Of a DNA stretch of 64,000 nt, positions 2,949 to 29,923 are shown one piece after another (within the stretch, counting starts at the first letter, position 1; every line of letters starts with the position of its first letter). Origin of the DNA: Mycoplasmatota bacterium (GTDB taxonomy: Bacteria; Bacillota_I; Bacilli_A; Haloplasmatales; Haloplasmataceae); the NCBI GenBank assembly GCA_018394295.1, contig CP074573.1, positions 682,001 to 746,000 of the forward strand, read 5' to 3'. The translations under genes and the position numbers were made by a program. The notes under the pieces are model-generated. The model saw only the letters and a list, made by a program, of their open reading frames with translations. It had not been told where the DNA came from and did no database searches.

Positions 2949-3770
2949 TTAACCTAACTTTTTTTTGAGATAAAAAGCGATAAAGAAGAACCCGTTTACA
3001 ACAACAATAGTAGAACCAGTAGGTGAATTGATTATAATTGATAATAATACACCTATTATAATGCTTAAAATCGAAACAATTAAGGATATTTTAATTGTGG
3101 ATTTAAAACCTTTAGAAACTTGTAAAGCTGTTACAGTAGGAAAAATGATTAAACTAGAGATTAACATTGTTCCTACAACACGAATTCCTAAAACAATTGT
3201 GAGAGAAGTAAGAATTGAAATAATATAGTTTAGTCGTTTGGTGTTAAGTCCTAATACTTTTGAGAATTCTTCGTCATAGGTTAAAGCAAATAAACTATTA
3301 TATAAAAATAAGACTGTAATAGTGACCACAATAGATAAGATAATTGATAAAATAACATCAAGATTGGTGACTAATAGAATACTTCCAAATAAGTAACTAG
3401 ATAAATTGACGTTAAAACCACTTGAATAACTCGCGATTAAGTAACCTAAAGCTACTGAAAAAGATGCAACTAAGCCAATGGCAGCATCCCCATGAATTTC
3501 TGCTTTTTCATTTAATTTCAAAATTAAGATTGAAGCTAGGATAACAAGTGGAATAGAAACATAAAGAGGGGTTATTCCTAGAAATAGAGCGATAGCAATT
3601 GTCGCAAAACTAACATGTGCTAGACCATCCCCTATCATTGAGTACTTCTTTAAAACAAGAAAAATTCCTAAAAAAGAACTGCTGATGGCTACTAATATAC
3701 CGACAAGTAGGGCTTTTAAAATGAAAGTTGAGGTAATCGCTTCTAATAATAATTGTATTGTTTCATTCAT
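2949..3770 (-). CDS. znuB: Zinc/manganese ABC transporter permease (ZnuB/AdcB type)
   Basis: A 273-residue, very hydrophobic ABC-3 family permease with about eight or nine membrane segments. The ALLVGILVAISSSFLGIFLVLKKYSMIGDGLAHVSFA region near the N-terminus and the GDAAIGLVASFSVALGYLIAS segment are typical of the family, and the central cytoplasmic loop after YDEEFSKVLGL would contact the ATPase. It follows znuC by two bases. It moves a divalent metal delivered by ZnuA across the membrane; zinc is inferred from the His-rich binding protein and Zur-like control, manganese being the alternative. Confidence 0.9.
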   Translation of the reverse strand: MNETIQLLLEAITSTFILKALLVGILVAISSSFLGIFLVLKKYSMIGDGLAHVSFATIAIALFLGITPLYVSIPLVILASILILKLNEKAEIHGDAAIGLVASFSVALGYLIASYSSGFNVNLSSYLFGSILLVTNLDVILSIILSIVVTITVLFLYNSLFALTYDEEFSKVLGLNTKRLNYIISILTSLTIVLGIRVVGTMLISSLIIFPTVTALQVSKGFKSTIKISLIVSILSIIIGVLLSIIINSPTGSTIVVVNGFFFIAFYLKKKLG

Positions 3771-18203: not shown

Positions 18204-18993
18204 TCAAATAAAAAAAAACAAAAATAATTCATATGAACTAACGATTTCAGATGAGGACAAAGAACATCATATTCAATTATCTGAAGATTTAATTATTAAA
18301 CATCATTTATATTTTAATAAAGAAATTAATAAAGAAGAATTTAAGTTTATTAAAACGTTAACTAATTATTCAAAAATATATGCTAAAACGTTGAACTATA
18401 TTGCGTTTAAAATGCGTACAGAAGAAGAAGTTGTGACATATTTAAAAAAGCATGATTGCAGTGAACCGTATTTGACAGAAATTATTCAAAAATTAAAAAG
18501 ATTAAATTATATTAATGATCAATTATTTAGTGACCTATATGTTAAAAATCAATTTGAGATGAATAAAAAAGGTCCACAATTAATTAAAAATGAATTATTA
18601 AAGAAACAAATTAAAGAAGAATTAATTAAAAAGAGTTTACAATACATTTCAAAGGATATGATTAATGATAATATTATCCATCTCATCTGTTCTTATGATA
18701 AATTAAATAAAAGTAAATCTATAAATAAATTAAAAGCCTCTATTTTACGTAGTTTGCTTTTAAAAGGATATGATTATGATATTGTTTCTTTTCAATTAAA
18801 TAAATATCCATTTACGGATAATAATAATGATGAACTATTACTAAAAAAAGAAACGATAAAAATGTTTAAGAAATATCAAAAAAAGTATGAAGGTTATGAA
18901 CTTAAAAATCGAGTCATTAAAACATTACTTAGTAAAGGCTTTTTATACGAAGATATTTTAAATGTACTTGCTTCAATTAATACGGAGGAATAG
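18193..18993 (+). CDS. recX: RecX-family regulator of RecA
   Basis: A 266-residue, strongly basic and helical RecX protein, in the long form usual in Bacillota. The core RecX three-helix repeats appear as AKTLNYIAFKMRTEEEVVTYLKKH, LKRLNYINDQLFSDLYVKNQ and a C-terminal repeat ending VIKTLLSKGFLYEDI. RecX binds RecA filaments and modulates recombination. The ATG at 18193 lies inside the end of ugtP with GAGGAAG upstream, so translation is coupled. glgB begins five bases after its stop, putting a DNA-repair regulator between lipid and glycogen genes. Confidence 0.88.
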   Translation: MIISQIKKNKNNSYELTISDEDKEHHIQLSEDLIIKHHLYFNKEINKEEFKFIKTLTNYSKIYAKTLNYIAFKMRTEEEVVTYLKKHDCSEPYLTEIIQKLKRLNYINDQLFSDLYVKNQFEMNKKGPQLIKNELLKKQIKEELIKKSLQYISKDMINDNIIHLICSYDKLNKSKSINKLKASILRSLLLKGYDYDIVSFQLNKYPFTDNNNDELLLKKETIKMFKKYQKKYEGYELKNRVIKTLLSKGFLYEDILNVLASINTEE

Positions 18994-18997
18994 GTTT

Positions 18998-20866
18998 ATG
19001 ATAAATCAACCCACTGATTTTGTATCGTATTTGTTTCATAAAGGTGAATTAAAAGAAGCCTTTAAACATTTTGGTAGTCATTTAGTTTTTGATGAAGAAA
19101 AAAATGTCATTGGTGCATCTTTTTGTGTGTATGCACCACATGCGAAAGAGGTTAGTGTCATTGGTGATTTTAATAATTGGGATTATTCTGTAAATCCAAT
19201 GAAAAAAATTTCTGAGGGTGGTATTTGGTATAGTTATATATCAGGTATCATGGAATATACGAGTTATAAATATGAGATAGTGACCTGGGAAAATAATCAT
19301 TTACAAAAAGCAGATCCGTTTGCCTATCATCATGAAACAAGACCAAAAACAGCCAGTAAAGTATATCCTATTGATGGTTATAAGTGGAATGATGAAGACT
19401 ATTTAGAAAAACAAAAAAGTATTAATTTGTATGAAAGTCCTATTTCAATCTATGAGTTTCATTTTGGTACATGGAAGAAAAAAGATAATAATATAAATTA
19501 CTCTTATGTAGAAATGGTTGATGAAGTAATTCCTTATATCTTAGAACAAGGGTTTACTCATATTGAACTATTACCTTTGGTTGAGCATCCTTATGATGGT
19601 TCTTGGGGATATCAAGGAACAGGATATTATGCAGCTACTAGTCGATATGGTACGCCTAAAGATTTAATGTATTTTATTGACCGTTGCCATCAAGCAGGAA
19701 TAGGTGTTATTTTAGATTTTGTTCCAGGACATTTTTGTCGAGATGCTCATGGTTTATATATGTTTGATGGTGAACCCACCTATGAGTATCCATTTGATGA
19801 TGTCAGAGAAAATGTTGTATGGGGAACTGCTAATTTTGACTTAGGGAAAAACGAAGTAAGAAGTTTTTTGATTTCAAGTGTATTATTTTGGATGAAGTAT
19901 TATCATTTAGATGGATTTAGAATGGATGCTATCGCTAATATCATTTATTGGTTAGGCGATAAAAGCCGAGGTTATAATTATAAAGCACTTGAATTTATTC
20001 GCTTAATGAATACAGCTGTATTTGAATATTATCCAAATGCTCTGATGATTGCTGAAGATTCAACTGATTTTCCGATGGTAACAAAACCTGTTTATATGGG
20101 TGGGTTAGGGTTTAATTATAAATGGAATATGGGTTGGATGAATGATGTATTAGAATATTTTGAAGAAGATTCATTGTTTAGAAAATATTTGCATAATAAT
20201 ATTACCTTTGGGCTTGTTTATGCATTTTCAGAGAATTTTATTTTACCATTTTCACATGATGAGGTTGTTCATGGAAAACGATCTCTCCTTAATAAAATGC
20301 CCGGTGATTACTGGCAAAAATTTGCTAATTTCAGGTTAATCATTGGATTTTTGATGACTCATCCTGGAAAAAAATTAATGTTCATGGGTGGAGAATTTGC
20401 TCATATGACTGAATGGAAAGATAAGGAACAACTTGATTGGAATTTATATCAATTCCCATCCCATGATTCTGCTAACTATTTCGTACGTGATATGATCAAT
20501 TTATATAAATCTGAAAAAGCACTTTATGAAACAGATCATTTAGAACAAAGTTTTTTATGGATAGATGCTAATAATTCGGATCAAAGTATTTTTTCTTATG
20601 TAAGAAAAAGTAAGGATAATGAAGAAGTATTAATCATTATTATGAACTGTACACCACTTGTCTATCATGAGTATAAATTAGGGGTTCCTTATGAAGGGGT
20701 TTATCAAGAAATTGTTAATAGTGATAGAGATTATTACGGTGGTTCTAACCAATATAATGGAGAATTAATTCATACTACCGCAGAAAAAATGCATGGATTT
20801 GAACAACAGATTAAATTATTAATTCCTCCATTAGGGATATCAATATTAAAATTAGTCAATAAATAG
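18998..20866 (+). CDS. glgB: 1,4-alpha-glucan (glycogen) branching enzyme
   Basis: A 622-residue GH13 enzyme starting at the ATG 18998 (GGAGG nine bases upstream). It has an N-terminal CBM48 (SFCVYAPHAKEVSVIGDFNNWD), then the TIM-barrel with conserved region VILDFVPGHF, the nucleophile in DGFRMDAIANI (Asp about 310), the acid/base in MIAEDSTDFP (Glu about 353), and the third acidic residue in FSHDEVVHGKRSLL. A C-terminal beta domain follows. It lacks the extra N1 domain of the E. coli enzyme, hence its shorter length. It forms alpha-1,6 branches in glycogen and is the first gene of the glycogen locus. Confidence 0.95.
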   Translation: MINQPTDFVSYLFHKGELKEAFKHFGSHLVFDEEKNVIGASFCVYAPHAKEVSVIGDFNNWDYSVNPMKKISEGGIWYSYISGIMEYTSYKYEIVTWENNHLQKADPFAYHHETRPKTASKVYPIDGYKWNDEDYLEKQKSINLYESPISIYEFHFGTWKKKDNNINYSYVEMVDEVIPYILEQGFTHIELLPLVEHPYDGSWGYQGTGYYAATSRYGTPKDLMYFIDRCHQAGIGVILDFVPGHFCRDAHGLYMFDGEPTYEYPFDDVRENVVWGTANFDLGKNEVRSFLISSVLFWMKYYHLDGFRMDAIANIIYWLGDKSRGYNYKALEFIRLMNTAVFEYYPNALMIAEDSTDFPMVTKPVYMGGLGFNYKWNMGWMNDVLEYFEEDSLFRKYLHNNITFGLVYAFSENFILPFSHDEVVHGKRSLLNKMPGDYWQKFANFRLIIGFLMTHPGKKLMFMGGEFAHMTEWKDKEQLDWNLYQFPSHDSANYFVRDMINLYKSEKALYETDHLEQSFLWIDANNSDQSIFSYVRKSKDNEEVLIIIMNCTPLVYHEYKLGVPYEGVYQEIVNSDRDYYGGSNQYNGELIHTTAEKMHGFEQQIKLLIPPLGISILKLVNK

Positions 20867-20933: not shown

Positions 20934-22052
20934 TTGCATAAAGAGGTTGTTGCTATTTTACTTGCTGGAGGAAAAGGGTCTAGGTTAAAAGAATTAACCG
21001 ATACCCATCCTAAACCAGCACTTCATTTTGGTGGTAAATATCGCATCATTGATTTTGCTTTAAGTAACTGTACAAATAGTGGTATTGATACAATTGGGAT
21101 CATTACGCAATACGAACCAATTGAATTAACCTCTTATATTGGGAGTGGTAGTGCTTGGGATTTAGATGTTTTAAATGGTGGGGTTACTGTATTACCACCT
21201 TATACCTCTAAACAGCAGGGTTTTTATTGGCAAAAAGGAACAGCTCACGCGGTATATCAACATTTAAACTATTTAGATTTATATCAACCTAAGTATGTAC
21301 TTATCTTATCAAGTGACCATGTTTATAAAATGGATTATAGTGAAATAATCGCATATCATATCGAAAAAAAAGCTGATCTAACCATCTCATCAGTGAAGGT
21401 TAATCATGAAGATGCGAAGCGTTTTGGTATTTTAACAATCAATGAAAACAACAAAGTCACTTCTTTTGAAGAAAAACCAGACAATCCCACATCTTTCCTT
21501 GCTTCTCAAGGAATATATGTGTTCAATTATCAAATATTAAAATCATTATTATATGATATGAGTTACCAATCAACTGCTGAGATAGATTTTGCCAAACATA
21601 TTATTCCACATATGATAAAGCATTTTAATGTATATACATATTTATTCAATGGATATTGGCAAGATATTGGAACAATTTATTCCTTATGGAAAGCAAATAT
21701 GGATTTGATTGATGATCCCCACTTGATTGAACTTGGCGATAATAAATGGCGAATTTTTTCTAATACAATTCATCTGCCAGGACATCATGTATATAAAAAT
21801 GCAAAAATAAAAAACTCTCTTATAAGTGAAGGAAGTATTATTTATGGGAATGTTTATCATTCTGTACTATCTCACTCTGTAATAATAGGCGAAAATAGTA
21901 CGATTGACAATACAGTAATTATGCCAAGGGTCAGAATAGGAGAAAATTGTTTAATTAAAAATGCGATTGTGAAAATGAATGTAAAAATCCCTAATAAAAC
22001 GCACTTAGTTTATGATTCAGTTAAGATAATCTCTGAAGAGGTGATATCATGA
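20934..22052 (+). CDS. glgC: Glucose-1-phosphate adenylyltransferase (ADP-glucose pyrophosphorylase)
   Basis: A 372-residue protein beginning at TTG (AAAGGATGA about eight bases upstream). The N-terminal catalytic signature is LLAGGKGSRLKELTDTHPKPALHFGGKYRIIDFALSNC. Other landmarks are the glucose-1-phosphate site FGILTINE ... EEKPDNP, the WQDIGTIYSLW segment, and a C-terminal left-handed beta-helix made of hexapeptide repeats (NSLISEGSIIYGNVYHSVLSHSVIIGENS). It makes ADP-glucose for glycogen synthase. It probably pairs with the GlgD-like domain of the next gene, as GlgC-GlgD do in Bacillota. Its stop overlaps the next start as ATGA. Confidence 0.95.
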   Translation: MHKEVVAILLAGGKGSRLKELTDTHPKPALHFGGKYRIIDFALSNCTNSGIDTIGIITQYEPIELTSYIGSGSAWDLDVLNGGVTVLPPYTSKQQGFYWQKGTAHAVYQHLNYLDLYQPKYVLILSSDHVYKMDYSEIIAYHIEKKADLTISSVKVNHEDAKRFGILTINENNKVTSFEEKPDNPTSFLASQGIYVFNYQILKSLLYDMSYQSTAEIDFAKHIIPHMIKHFNVYTYLFNGYWQDIGTIYSLWKANMDLIDDPHLIELGDNKWRIFSNTIHLPGHHVYKNAKIKNSLISEGSIIYGNVYHSVLSHSVIIGENSTIDNTVIMPRVRIGENCLIKNAIVKMNVKIPNKTHLVYDSVKIISEEVIS

Positions 22053-24457
22053 TTCCAAAAATGTTAGGAGTTATTGATGCTACTGTTTTTTATAAAGATT
22101 TACATAAACTCTTTATTCATCGATTACCAAGTGCCATTCAATTTGGTGGTCGTTACCGACTGATAGATTTTAGTTTATCTAATTTTAAAAACTCTGGAAT
22201 CCGTAATGTAGCTATCTATCCAAATGGAAATTATCGTTCTTTGACTGACCATGTTTCATCAGGTAAAGTTTGGGATTTAGACCGGAAAAGAGATGGACTT
22301 TTTATCTTACCTCCTAAACGAATTATTGACCAAAGTGAAGAGATGATTTCATTTGCTCGTATGAAGGAACATATGGAATACTTTTTGCGAAGTAAACAAG
22401 ATTATGTCGTTTTAACTAGTGGCGTTCTTGTTTGGAATATAAATTTTACAATCCCATTAAAAAATCATATTGATACCCAAGCAGATATTACTGAAATAAA
22501 AGTAAAAAATCAAAGAGTGAATACTTTTATATTAAAAAAAGCTTATTTAATTCAATTAATATTACAACATGAATATTTAGGATTTAAAAATTTAATTGAA
22601 GTTATTCAGTTTGCCCATAACATAAAGGTAAACGATTATGAACATCAAGGTTACACAAAGATGATTAAAAGTATACAAGACTTGTATGAGAGTCATATGG
22701 ATATGCTAAATTTTGATATTGGAAAATCAATATTTAAAGAAGAAGAACCGATGTTATCCAAAACAAAAGATTCACCCCCTACTTTTTATAAAGATAAAGC
22801 AAAAGTTAAGAATACGATTGTTGCAAATGGGGCAAACATTAATGGTTATATAGAAAACAGCATTATTTCTCGTGATGTATTCATTGAAGAAGGCGTTAGT
22901 ATTAATCACTCTATTATCATGCAGCAATCTAAGATATTAGCTAACGCGATTTTAGATTACTGTATAATAGATAAAAATACGATTATTGGCGAAAATGTTG
23001 TATTAAAGGGATCTAAGGAAAATCCTGTGATAGTTGAAAAAGAAGAAAAAATCATAACCAAATCAAAAATGAAGATATTTCATGTGGCAACAGAATGTGC
23101 ACCATTTATAAAAACAGGTGGGTTGGCTGATGTTTTAGCAGCACTCCCTAAAAGTCAACGTGATTTAGGGATTGAAATCAGTGTATGTATTCCACTTTAT
23201 CAACAAATTAAAAACAATTATCAAAAACAACTCCATCTTGAATATACTATTTTAATTGATGATCAAAACTGTTTAGTTTATTCTCTTAATCGTGAAGGGG
23301 TACGATATTATTTTATTAAAATAGAAGATTATTTTGAACAAAAAAAAATATACGGAAATGATAATGATCTTGTAAGGTATTATTATCTGAATAAATGTGT
23401 CCTTCAGTTAATAGAAAAATTTGAATATCCGCCTGATATTATTCATATTCATGACTATCATGTCTGTTTAATTCCTATTTTGATAAGGCACATATATAAG
23501 CAATATAATAGACCTAAGACATGTTTAACAATTCATAATATAAAGTATCAAGGAATCTATTATAATGAAAAATTTATAAATAAATACTTGAAAGATATCA
23601 CAAGTGACGATTCAATTAATTTCTTAAAACTTGGATTATCATATACAGATATCATTACAACCGTCTCACCTACTTATAGTAAAGAATTACAATATGAATT
23701 CTTTAGTGAAAATTTACAGGATATAATAATCAAAAGGAAAAATGATTTATACGGTATATTAAATGGTTTAGATGATAATGTATTTCACCCAAAAACAGAT
23801 ATTTCTATTGCTTTAAATTATGACATAAACTCGATTGATAAGAAAAAAGAAAACAAACGATACTTACAACAACATTCAAATCTGACAGTTGACGAACACA
23901 TTCCGATAATTGGGATGGTAACTAGACTTGTTGAACAAAAAGGGATAGATTTAGTTTTATCGATATTTGATAAATTAATGGAAACTGAGAAGGTACAATT
24001 CGTTTTACTTGGGACAGGTAATACGGTCTATGAAACAGAATTTAAATATTTTGAGAAAAAATATCCGAAACGTGTTAAAGCAAATATTGGTTATGATGCT
24101 TTTAATCCAAATCAAATTTATGCAGGTGCTGATCTTTTTTTAATGCCATCTAAGTTTGAACCATGTGGAATTTCACAAATGATTGCACTTAAGTATGGAA
24201 CTATTCCAATTGTTAGGGAAACAGGTGGATTAAAAGACACGGTGTTTGCCTATAATGAGTTCACTAAAAACGGAAATGGTTTTACATTTACAAATTATAA
24301 TGCGCAAGATATGTTACATACTATAAAAAGAGCAATCACTTTTTATAATCAGAAAAATGATTGGAATGAAATTGTAAAAAGTGCTATGAATTATGATTTT
24401 AATTATCATAAAACAGCCATGAAGTATTATCGTTTATATGAAATATTATTAAAATAA
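22049..24457 (+). CDS. glgDA: Fused GlgD-GlgA: ADP-glucose pyrophosphorylase regulatory domain plus glycogen synthase
   Basis: One uninterrupted 802-codon frame. Residues 1 to about 335 match GlgD: SAIQFGGRYRLIDFSLSNFKNSGI, SGKVWDLDRKRDGLFILPPK and a C-terminal hexapeptide beta-helix, but the GGKGSR catalytic loop is missing, as usual in GlgD. From residue 341 (DNA 23069) a complete GT5 glycogen synthase begins (MKIFHVATECAPFIKTGGLADVLAALPK). It holds the KTGGLADV ADP-glucose site, VSPTYSKEL, GMVTRLVEQKGIDL, and the C-terminal FEPCGISQMIALKYG and ETGGLKDTV. The joint has no stop, frameshift or ribosome site near the internal ATG. GlgD and GlgA are normally separate adjacent genes, so this is a real or recent gene fusion tying substrate synthesis to polymer growth. 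Confidence 0.92.
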   Translation: MIPKMLGVIDATVFYKDLHKLFIHRLPSAIQFGGRYRLIDFSLSNFKNSGIRNVAIYPNGNYRSLTDHVSSGKVWDLDRKRDGLFILPPKRIIDQSEEMISFARMKEHMEYFLRSKQDYVVLTSGVLVWNINFTIPLKNHIDTQADITEIKVKNQRVNTFILKKAYLIQLILQHEYLGFKNLIEVIQFAHNIKVNDYEHQGYTKMIKSIQDLYESHMDMLNFDIGKSIFKEEEPMLSKTKDSPPTFYKDKAKVKNTIVANGANINGYIENSIISRDVFIEEGVSINHSIIMQQSKILANAILDYCIIDKNTIIGENVVLKGSKENPVIVEKEEKIITKSKMKIFHVATECAPFIKTGGLADVLAALPKSQRDLGIEISVCIPLYQQIKNNYQKQLHLEYTILIDDQNCLVYSLNREGVRYYFIKIEDYFEQKKIYGNDNDLVRYYYLNKCVLQLIEKFEYPPDIIHIHDYHVCLIPILIRHIYKQYNRPKTCLTIHNIKYQGIYYNEKFINKYLKDITSDDSINFLKLGLSYTDIITTVSPTYSKELQYEFFSENLQDIIIKRKNDLYGILNGLDDNVFHPKTDISIALNYDINSIDKKKENKRYLQQHSNLTVDEHIPIIGMVTRLVEQKGIDLVLSIFDKLMETEKVQFVLLGTGNTVYETEFKYFEKKYPKRVKANIGYDAFNPNQIYAGADLFLMPSKFEPCGISQMIALKYGTIPIVRETGGLKDTVFAYNEFTKNGNGFTFTNYNAQDMLHTIKRAITFYNQKNDWNEIVKSAMNYDFNYHKTAMKYYRLYEILLK

Positions 24458-24474
24458 AATATAGAGGTGAACCT

Positions 24475-26904
24475 ATGCCAACAGGAATTTTTAGAACTAA
24501 AAAAGTATTTACAGAAACTTATATAAAACGTATTGAAAATATGTATGGAAAAAGATATAATGAAACATCGATTCATCAAAAATATTATGCCTTAGCTACA
24601 TTAGTACGTGAGCATGTAAGTAAAAATTGGATAGAATCAAAAGAAACGGTTATTAAAAACAAACAAAAACAAGTTTATTATTTCTCAATGGAATTTTTAA
24701 TGGGGCGATTATTAACCAATAATTTAATTAATTTAGGCGTTCGCAATATTATTAACTCTTCATTTGCTGATATGAATTTAGATTTAAAGGAAATTGAAGA
24801 TGTTGAAAGTGATGCTGGATTAGGAAATGGTGGTTTAGGTCGACTAGCTGCTTGTTTTTTAGATTCACTGGCTTCATTAAGTTATCCTGGTCATGGAAAT
24901 TGTATACGATATCGTTATGGCTTTTTTAATCAAAAGATAATCAATGGTTATCAAGTTGAAATACCTGATCAGTGGTTACAAAGAGGGTATGTCTGGGAAG
25001 TTAGAAAATCTAATGAAAGTACAAATGTTCCTTTTTATGGATATATTAGAATGGAAAATGTGGATGGAAAACTACAATTCATTCATGAAAACTCGATTTG
25101 TGTAAAAGCAGTTCCCTATGATGTACCAATTGCTGGATTCGATACTAAAACAGTAAATAATTTAACTCTATGGTCAGCTGAACCTTGTGAACAATATCCA
25201 GAAGGAATTAATCCTGCTGATTATGAACGAGAAGTACGACAAATCTCTGAATTTTTATATCCAGATGATTCAACTGATGAAGGAAAAATATTACGATTAA
25301 AGCAACAATATTTCTTTGTCGCTGCTGGGTTAAGAAGAATTATCACTCAACATAAATCACTCTATCATACAATGGATAATTTCCATGAGAAAATTACACT
25401 ACACATTAATGATACGCATCCTGCGCTTATCGTTCCAGAATTAATGCGTATTTTAATTGATGAAGAAGGATTTGATTGGGATAGTGCATGGGATATTACA
25501 ACACATACTTGTGCGTATACAAATCATACTATTTTATCTGAAGCATTAGAAAAATGGCCCGTTCGATTATTTCAACCATTATTACCTAGAATTTATATGA
25601 TTGTTGAAGAAATGAATCGTCGTTTATGTTTAACATTAATCAATAGATATGGTGATAATCATCCTAAAATAACTGATTTAGCAATTATCAGTCATGATTT
25701 AGTTCATATGGCGCATATTGCGATTGTTGGTTCATTTAGTGTGAATGGAGTTGCTGAATTACATACTAAAATTTTGAAGGATATTGAAATGAAAGACTTC
25801 AATGAATTATATCCACATAAATTTAATAATAAAACTAATGGTATTACACACAGAAGATGGGTCTATCAAGCTAATCCTGAATTAACCGCATTTTTAAATA
25901 AATATTGTGGAAAAGAATGGGTCAAAGAACCTGAATTGTTAAAAAATTTACTCCCCTTTGTAAATGATGAAAAAGTAAAAAAAGCGTTATATAAAATAAA
26001 ACAAGCGCGTAAAAAAGCTTTAGCAAGTAAAATAGAAAAAACACAAAACATTAAATTAGATGTGAATTCTATCTTTGATATCCAAGTCAAACGTCTTCAT
26101 GAATATAAAAGACAATTAATGAATGTTCTACATATTATGTATTTATATAACCGTCTCAAAAATGATCAGTCGTTTTATGACAATTTTTACCCACAATCAT
26201 ATATCTTTGGTGCTAAAGCTGCAAGTAGTTACTATTTAGCTAAAAAGGTAATTAAATTAATTAACTCTGTTAGTGAAATTGTCAATAATGATGAACTTGT
26301 TAATGAAAAAATGAAAGTAGTTTTTGTTGAAAATTATAATGTTTCTTACGCAGAGGATATTATGCCAGCAGCTAATTTATCTGAACAAATATCGACAGCT
26401 TCTAAAGAAGCATCGGGGACTGGAAATATGAAATTTATGATGAATGGTGCTTTAACAATAGGAACACTAGACGGGGCTAATATTGAGATATCTGAACTAA
26501 CAGGAATAGATAATGAGTTTATATTTGGACTGACTGCTGATGAAGTTAACGAATTATATGAAGCAAAAACATATGACCCATGGGATATTTATCATCAAGA
26601 TTTACATCTACAAGAAGTTCTAGATCAATTAGTTAATGGTTTCTTTAATGATGTTCAAGAAGATGAATTCAAAGATATTTATGACAATTTATTGTATCGT
26701 GGTGATCAATACTTTGTTTTGAAAGATTTTGATAGTTATAGAAGAGCACAAGAAAAAGCAAATCAAACCTATAAGAATCAAGATAAATGGTTAGAGATGG
26801 CTTTAATTAATATTGCTAAATCAGGTTATTTTTCAAGTGACCGAACAATAGAACAGTACGTTAATGAGATTTGGCATCTTGAAAAAAATATGTTTGATCA
26901 ATAA
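24475..26904 (+). CDS. glgP: Glycogen phosphorylase
   Basis: An 809-residue GT35 phosphorylase with a full-length alpha-glucan phosphorylase fold: SMEFLMGRLLTNNLINLG near the N-terminus, DAGLGNGGLGRLAACFLDSLAS, the NDTHPALIVPELMRIL segment, and the pyridoxal-phosphate lysine in GTGNMKFMMNGALTIGTLDGAN. It releases glucose-1-phosphate from glycogen ends. Transcription ends just beyond at a strong hairpin. GAGGTGAACC is the ribosome site. It provides degradation alongside the synthesis genes glgB, C and DA. Confidence 0.96.
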   Translation: MPTGIFRTKKVFTETYIKRIENMYGKRYNETSIHQKYYALATLVREHVSKNWIESKETVIKNKQKQVYYFSMEFLMGRLLTNNLINLGVRNIINSSFADMNLDLKEIEDVESDAGLGNGGLGRLAACFLDSLASLSYPGHGNCIRYRYGFFNQKIINGYQVEIPDQWLQRGYVWEVRKSNESTNVPFYGYIRMENVDGKLQFIHENSICVKAVPYDVPIAGFDTKTVNNLTLWSAEPCEQYPEGINPADYEREVRQISEFLYPDDSTDEGKILRLKQQYFFVAAGLRRIITQHKSLYHTMDNFHEKITLHINDTHPALIVPELMRILIDEEGFDWDSAWDITTHTCAYTNHTILSEALEKWPVRLFQPLLPRIYMIVEEMNRRLCLTLINRYGDNHPKITDLAIISHDLVHMAHIAIVGSFSVNGVAELHTKILKDIEMKDFNELYPHKFNNKTNGITHRRWVYQANPELTAFLNKYCGKEWVKEPELLKNLLPFVNDEKVKKALYKIKQARKKALASKIEKTQNIKLDVNSIFDIQVKRLHEYKRQLMNVLHIMYLYNRLKNDQSFYDNFYPQSYIFGAKAASSYYLAKKVIKLINSVSEIVNNDELVNEKMKVVFVENYNVSYAEDIMPAANLSEQISTASKEASGTGNMKFMMNGALTIGTLDGANIEISELTGIDNEFIFGLTADEVNELYEAKTYDPWDIYHQDLHLQEVLDQLVNGFFNDVQEDEFKDIYDNLLYRGDQYFVLKDFDSYRRAQEKANQTYKNQDKWLEMALINIAKSGYFSSDRTIEQYVNEIWHLEKNMFDQ

Positions 26905-26957: not shown

Positions 26958-29078
26958 ATGAATCATTTATTTAATGCATACTTAGACGATTTTAATAAAG
27001 TTACGATTATACTTCCTAAAAATTATTTTCAAGGTAGAAGTCGATCTTTTATATTAATACATGAGAATGAAGAAATTGATTTATTTATTGAACAAGTTAT
27101 TGATATAGGTGATTATAATAAGTATATATGTTTATTACCTACATTTGTAGAATTAGGAGTTTTATACTTTGTTAAAGATGAGTATGGTAATCAAACTGTG
27201 TTACAATCTGGTGCAATTGTTAGAAGTAGTCGTTTTGATACTTTATACTATTATGAGAAGAAAGATTTGGGGGTTACCTATCGAAAAGAAGCATCTACTT
27301 TTAAATTATGGGCTCCTACTGCGACAAAAGTATCTTTAATTATAAAAAGTGATGAACAAGAATACTTATATCCAATGAGAAGATGTAAAAAAGGAATATA
27401 TGAAGTAATCATTAAAGGTGATTTAGATGGAAAGTTATATCGTTATTTGGTTACGAATAATAATAGAGAAAGAGAAATTATTGATGTATATGGAATTAGC
27501 TCTAATGCGAATTTACAATATAGTGCCATCATAAATCCTGAAAAATTGATTGATATAAAACCACTCAGTCAACCAATTAAAGAACCAACCGATGCCATCA
27601 TTTATGAAATGAATATTCGTGATTTTTCAATTGATAAAAATAACGGAGTTAAATATAAGGGTAAATATTTAGGGTTAACTGAAAAAAATACAAAATCAAC
27701 TAATAATAATCCAACGGGATTAGATTATTTAATTAATTTAGGGATTACTCATGTTCAAATTCTTCCATTTTTTGATTTCGGTGGCGTTGATGAACTAGAT
27801 CCTGATAAAATGTATAACTGGGGATATAATCCAGAACAGTATAATACACCTGAGGGAAGTTATAGTTTATATCCAAATGATGTTTATTCTCGGTTAAATG
27901 AATTACGACAGATGATTAACGTTTTACATGAATATAATATTGGCGTTATTATGGATGTTGTCTATAATCATGTACATAATATGAACACTTTTCCATTTGA
28001 TCATATGATACCAGGGTACTTTTTTCGTTATAACCAATATGGCATGCCAACTAATGGATCAGGCTGTGGCAATGATTTAGCGACTGAACGAGAGATGGTA
28101 AGAAAATTTATTATTGATTCAGTTAAATATTGGGCAAAAACTTATCAATTAGATGGATTTCGCTTTGATTTAATGGGCTTAATTGATATTGAGACAATGA
28201 ATCGAATAAGACGAGAATTGAATGATATTAATCCTGGTTTTTTACTTTATGGTGAAGGTTGGAATTTGAATACCGCTCTTCCAAATGAGCTTAAATCGAC
28301 TTTAACCAATGCTTATAAACTCCCAGGAATTTATTTCTTTAATGATCAATATCGTGATTTCATTAAAGGAAATACATTTGTGATTAATGATTTAGGTTAT
28401 CCATTTGGTCATTTCGAATACTTAGAATCTGTTAAACAAATGTTAGCTGGAAGTGTTGGTTATGAGAAACAAAAAACACATATGTTTTTTGAACCCTATC
28501 AAACCATTAACTATATAGAATGCCATGATAATTTCACAATGTATGATAAAATCAAACTAGCTAAAGCATTTGAACCAAAAGAAAAGAGAATCAAAAGACA
28601 AAGGTTAGCCACTAGTATGTTATTACTATCACAAGGTATTCCCATGATTCATAGTGGTCAAGAATTTTACCGTACAAAGTATGGAGTAGAAAATAGTTAT
28701 AACTCGCCTGATAAAATAAATATGATTAATTGGAAACGAATGGATGACCATATTCAGGACGTACATTATATCCAAGAATTGATTAAGGTTAGAAAAAGTC
28801 ATCAGGCTTTTCATTTTAATTCAGCAGCAAAAATAAAAAAGCATCTCACTTTTCTTGAAAGTGATCAAGGCGTTATTATTATATTACTTCATAATGTAAA
28901 ACAATATGGTTGTTTTAATGATATTCAAATTATCTTTAATTGTACAGAAGAGGATTTTGCTTATAGATTTGATGATGATTATAAACTACTTTTTGATGAA
29001 AAAGCTTATCTATTAGGTAAAGATATTCCTAACTATTTAATTATAAAAGCATTAAGTGTTATGATAATAGGAAAATAA
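26958..29078 (+). CDS. pulA: Type I pullulanase (glycogen debranching)
   Basis: A 706-residue GH13 debranching enzyme. A CBM48-like domain (VTYRKEASTFKLWAPTATKVSLII) precedes the catalytic barrel. The hallmark type I pullulanase motif appears as YNWGYNPEQYNTPEGSYS. Catalytic regions are DVVYNHV, GFRFDLMGLID (nucleophile Asp), LLYGEGW (acid/base Glu) and IECHDNFTMYDKI. No signal peptide is visible, so it is intracellular and likely clips alpha-1,6 branches left by glycogen phosphorylase. GGAGG lies seven bases before the ATG; the gene has terminators on both sides and is probably transcribed partly by read-through. Confidence 0.94.
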   Translation: MNHLFNAYLDDFNKVTIILPKNYFQGRSRSFILIHENEEIDLFIEQVIDIGDYNKYICLLPTFVELGVLYFVKDEYGNQTVLQSGAIVRSSRFDTLYYYEKKDLGVTYRKEASTFKLWAPTATKVSLIIKSDEQEYLYPMRRCKKGIYEVIIKGDLDGKLYRYLVTNNNREREIIDVYGISSNANLQYSAIINPEKLIDIKPLSQPIKEPTDAIIYEMNIRDFSIDKNNGVKYKGKYLGLTEKNTKSTNNNPTGLDYLINLGITHVQILPFFDFGGVDELDPDKMYNWGYNPEQYNTPEGSYSLYPNDVYSRLNELRQMINVLHEYNIGVIMDVVYNHVHNMNTFPFDHMIPGYFFRYNQYGMPTNGSGCGNDLATEREMVRKFIIDSVKYWAKTYQLDGFRFDLMGLIDIETMNRIRRELNDINPGFLLYGEGWNLNTALPNELKSTLTNAYKLPGIYFFNDQYRDFIKGNTFVINDLGYPFGHFEYLESVKQMLAGSVGYEKQKTHMFFEPYQTINYIECHDNFTMYDKIKLAKAFEPKEKRIKRQRLATSMLLLSQGIPMIHSGQEFYRTKYGVENSYNSPDKINMINWKRMDDHIQDVHYIQELIKVRKSHQAFHFNSAAKIKKHLTFLESDQGVIIILLHNVKQYGCFNDIQIIFNCTEEDFAYRFDDDYKLLFDEKAYLLGKDIPNYLIIKALSVMIIGK

Positions 29079-29116: not shown

Positions 29117-29488
29117 TTAATTAATATCCCAAGAAACTGTAAAAGTTCCTCCATGATTATCAGCATATACTTTTACTTTATAAGATCCTTTTTTATCGAT
29201 TGTCACTTCTGAATCATCTTCTATCATAGTAATTACTTTATCATTTAAAAGAAGTTTTGCTTTAATCGTCCCTTTCTTAGTTGTTTCTCTAAAATGAAAA
29301 TGAATGACATCTCCTTCTTCTAATTTAACCGTTTTAAAGTAATTACCATCAAATGTTTTATAAGAACCTTGAATAGAATTTGAAGTAGTATCAAGGTTTC
29401 CAACAGTTATTTTATAGCTCCCACCAGAACAACCACTAATAATAAGTAATGAGATCATTAACATAAATGTCATTACCAATTTTTTCAT
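29117..29488 (-). CDS. Small secreted lipoprotein, copy 1 of a tandem pair
   Basis: A 123-residue lipoprotein; the ATG at 29488 is seven bases from GGAGG, while the ATG two codons upstream is too close. The signal peptide ends in the lipobox ISGC. The mature part is a single beta-rich domain (GSYKTFDGNYFKTVKLEEGDVIHFHF ... KKGSYKVKVYADNHGGTFTVSWDIN). It resembles small jelly-roll-like extracellular domains but matches no named family that I recognise. The next upstream gene is a clear paralogue (shared GSYKTFDG, LEEGD, ADNH-GxFxVSW). Role unknown. Confidence 0.8.
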   Translation of the reverse strand: MKKLVMTFMLMISLLIISGCSGGSYKITVGNLDTTSNSIQGSYKTFDGNYFKTVKLEEGDVIHFHFRETTKKGTIKAKLLLNDKVITMIEDDSEVTIDKKGSYKVKVYADNHGGTFTVSWDIN

Positions 29489-29551
29489 ATGCATACCTCC
29501 AGTATTTATTGTTATTGTTTTTAGTTCAAACTCATGTTTAAATATTAAAAA

Positions 29552-29923
29552 TTATTTAATTTCCCAAGATACCTTAAAACTTCCACTATGATTATCTGCG
29601 ATTACTGTTACTTCATAAGTTCCTGTTGTGTCAATTGTTACTTCACATTTATCTTGAATAGTTGAAATCAATTGGTCTTGAAAATATATTTCAGAAAGTA
29701 TTGTTCCTTTATTTGTAGTTGATTCAAAATGAAATTGAACAATATCTCCTTCTTCTAATTTAATATTTTTATGGTAATCACCATCAAATGTTTTATAAGA
29801 CCCTTCAATGTAATGTGAAGTTGCGCTAACATTTCCTCTTTCTATATAGTAACTATTATTAGAGCAACCACTAATAAACAGTAAAAAGAAGATCATGATA
29901 AATGATAAAAATACTTTTTTCAT
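29552..29923 (-). CDS. Small secreted lipoprotein, copy 2 of a tandem pair
   Basis: A 123-residue paralogue of the gene at 29117-29488, with lipobox ISGC and the same domain (EGSYKTFDGDYHKNIKLEEGDIVQFHFESTT ... TYEVTVIADNHSGSFKVSWEIK). AGGAGG precedes the ATG by six bases. Its leader and signal peptide (MKKVFLSFIMIFFLLFISGC) nearly match those of the disrupted foldase copy whose start lies at 32328. That suggests recombination carried this expression and export module onto that gene. Molecular function is unknown. Confidence 0.8.
   Translation of the reverse strand: MKKVFLSFIMIFFLLFISGCSNNSYYIERGNVSATSHYIEGSYKTFDGDYHKNIKLEEGDIVQFHFESTTNKGTILSEIYFQDQLISTIQDKCEVTIDTTGTYEVTVIADNHSGSFKVSWEIK

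Follow-up and report, generated by a model that had tools for sequence, protein, structure and literature searches.

In the window, by which we mean the whole 64,000-nt stretch of DNA that was analysed, the ADP-glucose pyrophosphorylase subunit GlgD and the glycogen synthase GlgA share one open reading frame. Our favoured reading, to which we give a probability of about 0.6, is that this is a true, translated fusion whose GlgD half pairs with GlgC and thereby tethers glycogen synthase to ADP-glucose production. The frame announced by the sequence-only reading is indeed present: it runs from 22049 to 24457 on the forward strand, starts with ATG and has 802 codons, giving 802 amino acids with no internal stop. 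As that reading also stated, glgC adjoins it upstream through an ATGA overlap. The genes are arranged in the order glgB-glgC-[glgD::glgA]-glgP-pulA (Table 1). Downstream of this operon, on the reverse strand (29117-29923), lies a tandem pair of small genes, of 125 and 123 aa, that resemble each other and look lipoprotein-like; each has an ISGCS motif close to its N-terminus.

Table 1. Features of the glycogen operon and of the fused gene, in window coordinates
Feature	Position	Strand	Evidence
glgB, 1,4-alpha-glucan branching enzyme	18962..20866	+	Pfam Alpha-amylase_C, CBM_48
glgC, catalytic ADP-glucose pyrophosphorylase, TTG start, presumed partner	20934..22052	+	NF003670, TIGR02091, motifs
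GlgD domain, residues 1-336	22049..23056	+	TIGR02092, Hexapep_GlmU, motif survey
Approximate site of the missing glucose-1-phosphate-binding segment (EEKP hairpin), ~residues 151-153	22499..22507	+	Alignment of 39 fusions
Junction, Lys331 and the nine residues before GlgA begins	23039..23068	+	Junctions of 39 fusions
GlgA domain, residues 341-802 and stop, complete GT5 glycogen synthase	23069..24457	+	TIGR02095, active-site residues
glgP, glycogen phosphorylase	24475..26904	+	TIGR02093, 1099.6 bits
pulA-type debranching enzyme (pullulanase)	26958..29078	+	PulA_N1, Alpha-amylase, pulA_all-beta

The N-terminal half is of the GlgD type: it scores 285.2 bits with the NCBIfam model TIGR02092 (glgD; cut-off 236.6), and its C-terminal left-handed beta-helix is matched above cut-off by Pfam Hexapep_GlmU (residues 249-318). 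It consists of a degenerate nucleotidyltransferase fold and a left-handed beta-helix (~249-320). The claimed absence of the GGxGxR loop holds as well, the alignment placing ATVFYKDL where GlgC has AGGKGSRL. The loss goes further than this loop. In a motif survey the GlgC motifs GGxGxR, KPA, (G/S)DH, EKP and DxGT were all without counterpart in the fusions. When 39 fusions were aligned with full-length GlgD and GlgC, a glucose-1-phosphate-binding segment of ~33-36 residues, containing the EKP motif, was found deleted in every one of them, which is why the fused GlgD is ~35 residues shorter than a full-length one. Because both the catalytic motifs and this segment are lost, synthesis of ADP-glucose by the GlgC mechanism is not expected of the GlgD half, and it is predicted to be non-catalytic. 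Residue numbering was anchored on GlgC and GlgA of E. coli; using the window's own GlgC as anchor gave an identical outcome for the loss of GlgD motifs.

The shortened GlgD is not unique to fusions, a possibility ruled out by the same deletion in the unfused GlgDs of Anoxybacillus amylolyticus, of genus g60 and of the second glg set of the window genome. In A. amylolyticus, a 342-aa unfused GlgD sharing the deletion of the window protein is encoded between glgC and glgA on plasmid NZ_CP015439.1 (L110 4001-5029), and is annotated merely as a sugar phosphate nucleotidyltransferase.

The proposal that a complete GT5 synthase starts at residue 341 was borne out: TIGR02095 gives 496.9 bits (cut-off 328.45), residues 341-798 covering positions 1-475 of the 477 of the model, and Pfam Glyco_transf_5 matches residues 342-560. 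The equivalents of E. coli GlgA active-site residues K15, D21, H161, R300, K305 and E377 are kept in all 39 fusions; by its predicted active site, the GlgA half is an intact glycogen synthase. In comparison with characterised GT5 GlgAs (TIGR02095; structures 3D1J, 2QZS and 1RZU), it is full length and keeps the checked active-site residues, but carries an N-terminal GlgD domain and usually lacks a start codon of its own. The adjacent GlgC is above cut-off with NF003670 (502.7 bits) and with TIGR02091 (425.5 bits), and has all five motifs (GGKGSR, KPA, SDH, EEKP and DIGT). In the 38 loci checked, the glgC genes beside the fusions keep the GGxGxR, K, D, EKP and DxGT regions, with some variation near the KPA lysine.

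A joined frame of this kind was found in 57 of the 395 sampled genomes of the class (3 of the 57 were cut by contig ends). The fusion is therefore real and in a single frame, as had been proposed, but it is not peculiar to the window genome: it is old and common to five families, namely f1 (3 genomes), f11 (6), f12 (25), f20 (4) and f22 (19). Identity to the window protein is 70% in the sister species, 54% in another genus of the family and ~37-47% elsewhere, and the order glgB-glgC-glgDA-glgP is kept among the fusion loci. A joined frame kept in relatives rules out a frameshift or an assembly error as its cause. No fusion was found outside these five families in a phylum-wide sample of 392 genomes, nor among 391 Clostridia (the class of a Clostridiaceae MAG) at E<=1e-130, a threshold below which a very divergent fusion might score. 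Every two-domain match in the Clostridia had at least one stop inside. Apparent fusions in these and in families f5, f7, f16, f17 and f19 were discarded, at least one stop standing between the genes. A GlgC-GlgA fusion, suspected from long open frames in two genomes (G028 and G050), was likewise ruled out by a stop between glgC and glgA. In the second cluster of f11 (L046 7152-7154, L047 5768-5770, L050 ~550-552), glgC and glgA share a frame broken by a single stop, one step short of a GlgC-GlgA fusion.

As to its origin, the fused proteins form one clade in the GlgA tree (support 100/99). The GlgD tree unites the short GlgDs, all of them, in one group (98/88, or 89/81 once Anoxybacillus is added), and the unfused GlgD2 of the window genome and of f1 falls, on a long branch, inside or beside the fused GlgDs, a placement that makes a later separation possible. 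Constraining the fused GlgDs to one clade was not rejected (AU test, p=0.20). In f5, f7, f16, f17 and f19 the unfused glgD and glgA often share a frame and are parted by a single stop, whose loss would suffice for fusion. The history is most simply explained by a single fusion in a shared ancestor, followed by losses; transfer of the fusion between lineages is possible. In genus g60 of f11 (L086, L087; G074, G082) a short GlgD and a GlgA share a frame that one stop interrupts. Taking this operon for a preserved pre-fusion state is weakened by its GlgA, which groups with that of Anoxybacillus (100/99) and not with the fusions of f11; the operon may be a separate acquisition.

The joint itself has kept its length. 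From Lys331 to the GlgA start there are exactly nine residues in all 39 fusions examined, with the pattern K-x-Q in most of them and K-E-E/D in f1. The position of the GlgA start, Met341 in the window, is Met in only 5 of the 39; the other 34 have I, L, Q, P or Y, with a TTG codon there in four cases. The 24 nt upstream of the internal ATG at 23069 hold no Shine-Dalgarno-like sequence, in agreement with the earlier statement that no ribosome site precedes it, and across the fusions such matches before the GlgA start are few, sporadic and not conserved. With the internal Met lost in 34 of 39 and no conserved ribosome site, one polypeptide is expected. Between the two nearest genomes, dN/dS is ~0.11 for the GlgD half and ~0.13 for the GlgA half, dS being near saturation, and third codon positions are the most variable in either half as well as across the joint; the substitution pattern points to similar purifying selection on the two halves. 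An AlphaFold prediction of the whole fusion from a six-row alignment gave a poor model (pLDDT 57.8, pTM 0.37).

The window genome also carries an unfused glgC2-glgD2 pair, with glgA2 ~10 kb away. The frame of this glgA2 is interrupted around codon 10 by a TAA (INVLFAVSE*PLYAKTGG; L051 ~3545-3600, G000:C1 ~120.55 kb) at a position that is open in the sister species (L059). The gene may be a pseudogene, may have undergone a recent nonsense mutation, or may owe this TAA to a sequencing error; a genuine stop could leave the genome with the fusion as its sole intact GlgA-type glycogen synthase. At the expected start of glgA2 (L051 ~3540-3560; L059) neither species has an ATG, GTG or TTG. In both, an ATT follows a good ribosome site, GAGGTGAT, which suggests that this rare start codon is used.

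What the fusion may do can be approached from the GlgC/GlgD pairs of other Bacillota (Geobacillus, Streptococcus mutans, Ruminococcus albus), where a non-catalytic GlgD likewise stands beside a catalytic GlgC; the window GlgD half differs from them in continuing, at its C-terminal end, into an entire glycogen synthase. By itself the GlgD of Bacillota has no activity; it associates with GlgC and modulates that subunit (PMC9093745). In Geobacillus it raises the efficiency of GlgC and widens its substrate use, the enzyme being insensitive to allosteric effectors; in other Firmicutes, Ruminococcus among them, the allosteric response is shaped by GlgD (PMC9093745). From this behaviour and from the constant pairing of glgC with glgDA, we infer binding of GlgC by the GlgD half, which would bring GlgA into the complex. 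The stop between adjacent glgD and glgA would have been lost, most likely once, in an ancestor of the five Bacilli families, which include the wall-less Izemoplasma-type lineages. The GlgD half would then join GlgC in a mixed ADP-glucose pyrophosphorylase, raising or tuning GlgC activity, and GlgA would sit close to the site of ADP-glucose release. As GlgD and GlgA are covalently joined, each mixed complex would carry the synthase in fixed proportion; with two subunits of each kind it would be of ~270 kDa. A kinetic benefit of the tethering may be presumed by analogy. The more specific version is tentative: within a GlgC:(GlgD-GlgA) complex, either ADP-glucose would be handed locally to the attached synthase or the effectors of GlgC would also control elongation, an arrangement fixed once, in the ancestor of the Izemoplasma-type bacteria and their relatives.

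It could also be that the join is near-neutral, GlgD and GlgA working as if apart, with 1:1 expression as its sole effect and neither channelling nor coupled regulation. The step required is small, the unfused genes sharing an operon and, in many cases, a frame broken by one stop, and in most bacteria little else draws on ADP-glucose. A neutral join should however drift and split more than is observed, the junction length being constant in five families and no clear re-separation being seen in the 57 genomes; we consider this explanation unlikely.

Less probable still is that the GlgD half has given up its pairing with GlgC and now serves GlgA as a module for oligomerisation or for anchoring to glucan, leaving GlgC to work as a homotetramer. 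Given its divergence, the GlgD part could have lost the ability to bind GlgC; it retains no catalytic motif and no glucose-1-phosphate segment, and GlgC can be active alone as a homotetramer (PMC9093745). Such a role sits poorly with the genomic context, glgC directly preceding the fusion, with an overlap or a gap of at most 10 nt, in all 38 loci checked, with the short GlgD of the same deletion that stands unfused beside glgC in Anoxybacillus, and with the action of the Geobacillus GlgD on GlgC (PMC9093745). An assembly or sequencing artefact, or two products made from the frame by an internal start (in the window an ATG does stand where GlgA begins) or by cleavage, is very improbable given the intact fusion in many independently assembled genomes, the disappearance of the internal start codon from most fusions and the lack of a conserved ribosome site.

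The GlgD-GlgA fusion, which in our preferred reading pairs with GlgC, can be compared with other natural fusions between alpha-glucan enzymes. In the chlamydial Waddlia, GlgA is fused to GlgB, the synthase part being active and the branching-enzyme part inactive (PMC7935935); glycogen synthase is there likewise joined to another enzyme of the pathway, but the partner is a branching enzyme, the order is different and the lineage has lost glgC. TreS-Mak and GlgB-MalQ (PMC11046441) are further natural fusions of the kind, involving other enzymes and other steps. A GlgD-GlgA fusion was not found described in the literature searched, which lay mostly outside the subscription journals; within it, fused glycogen enzymes are thus already known and the pairing of GlgD with GlgA is apparently new. 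To conclude, if our reading is true, the step at which bacteria regulate glycogen synthesis would be physically tied to the next enzyme, and this tie between pyrophosphorylase and glycogen synthase would make channelling and the function of GlgD testable in one protein. The fusion event, apparently single and rare, is also a possible marker for the relation of the Izemoplasma-type wall-less bacteria to other Bacilli.
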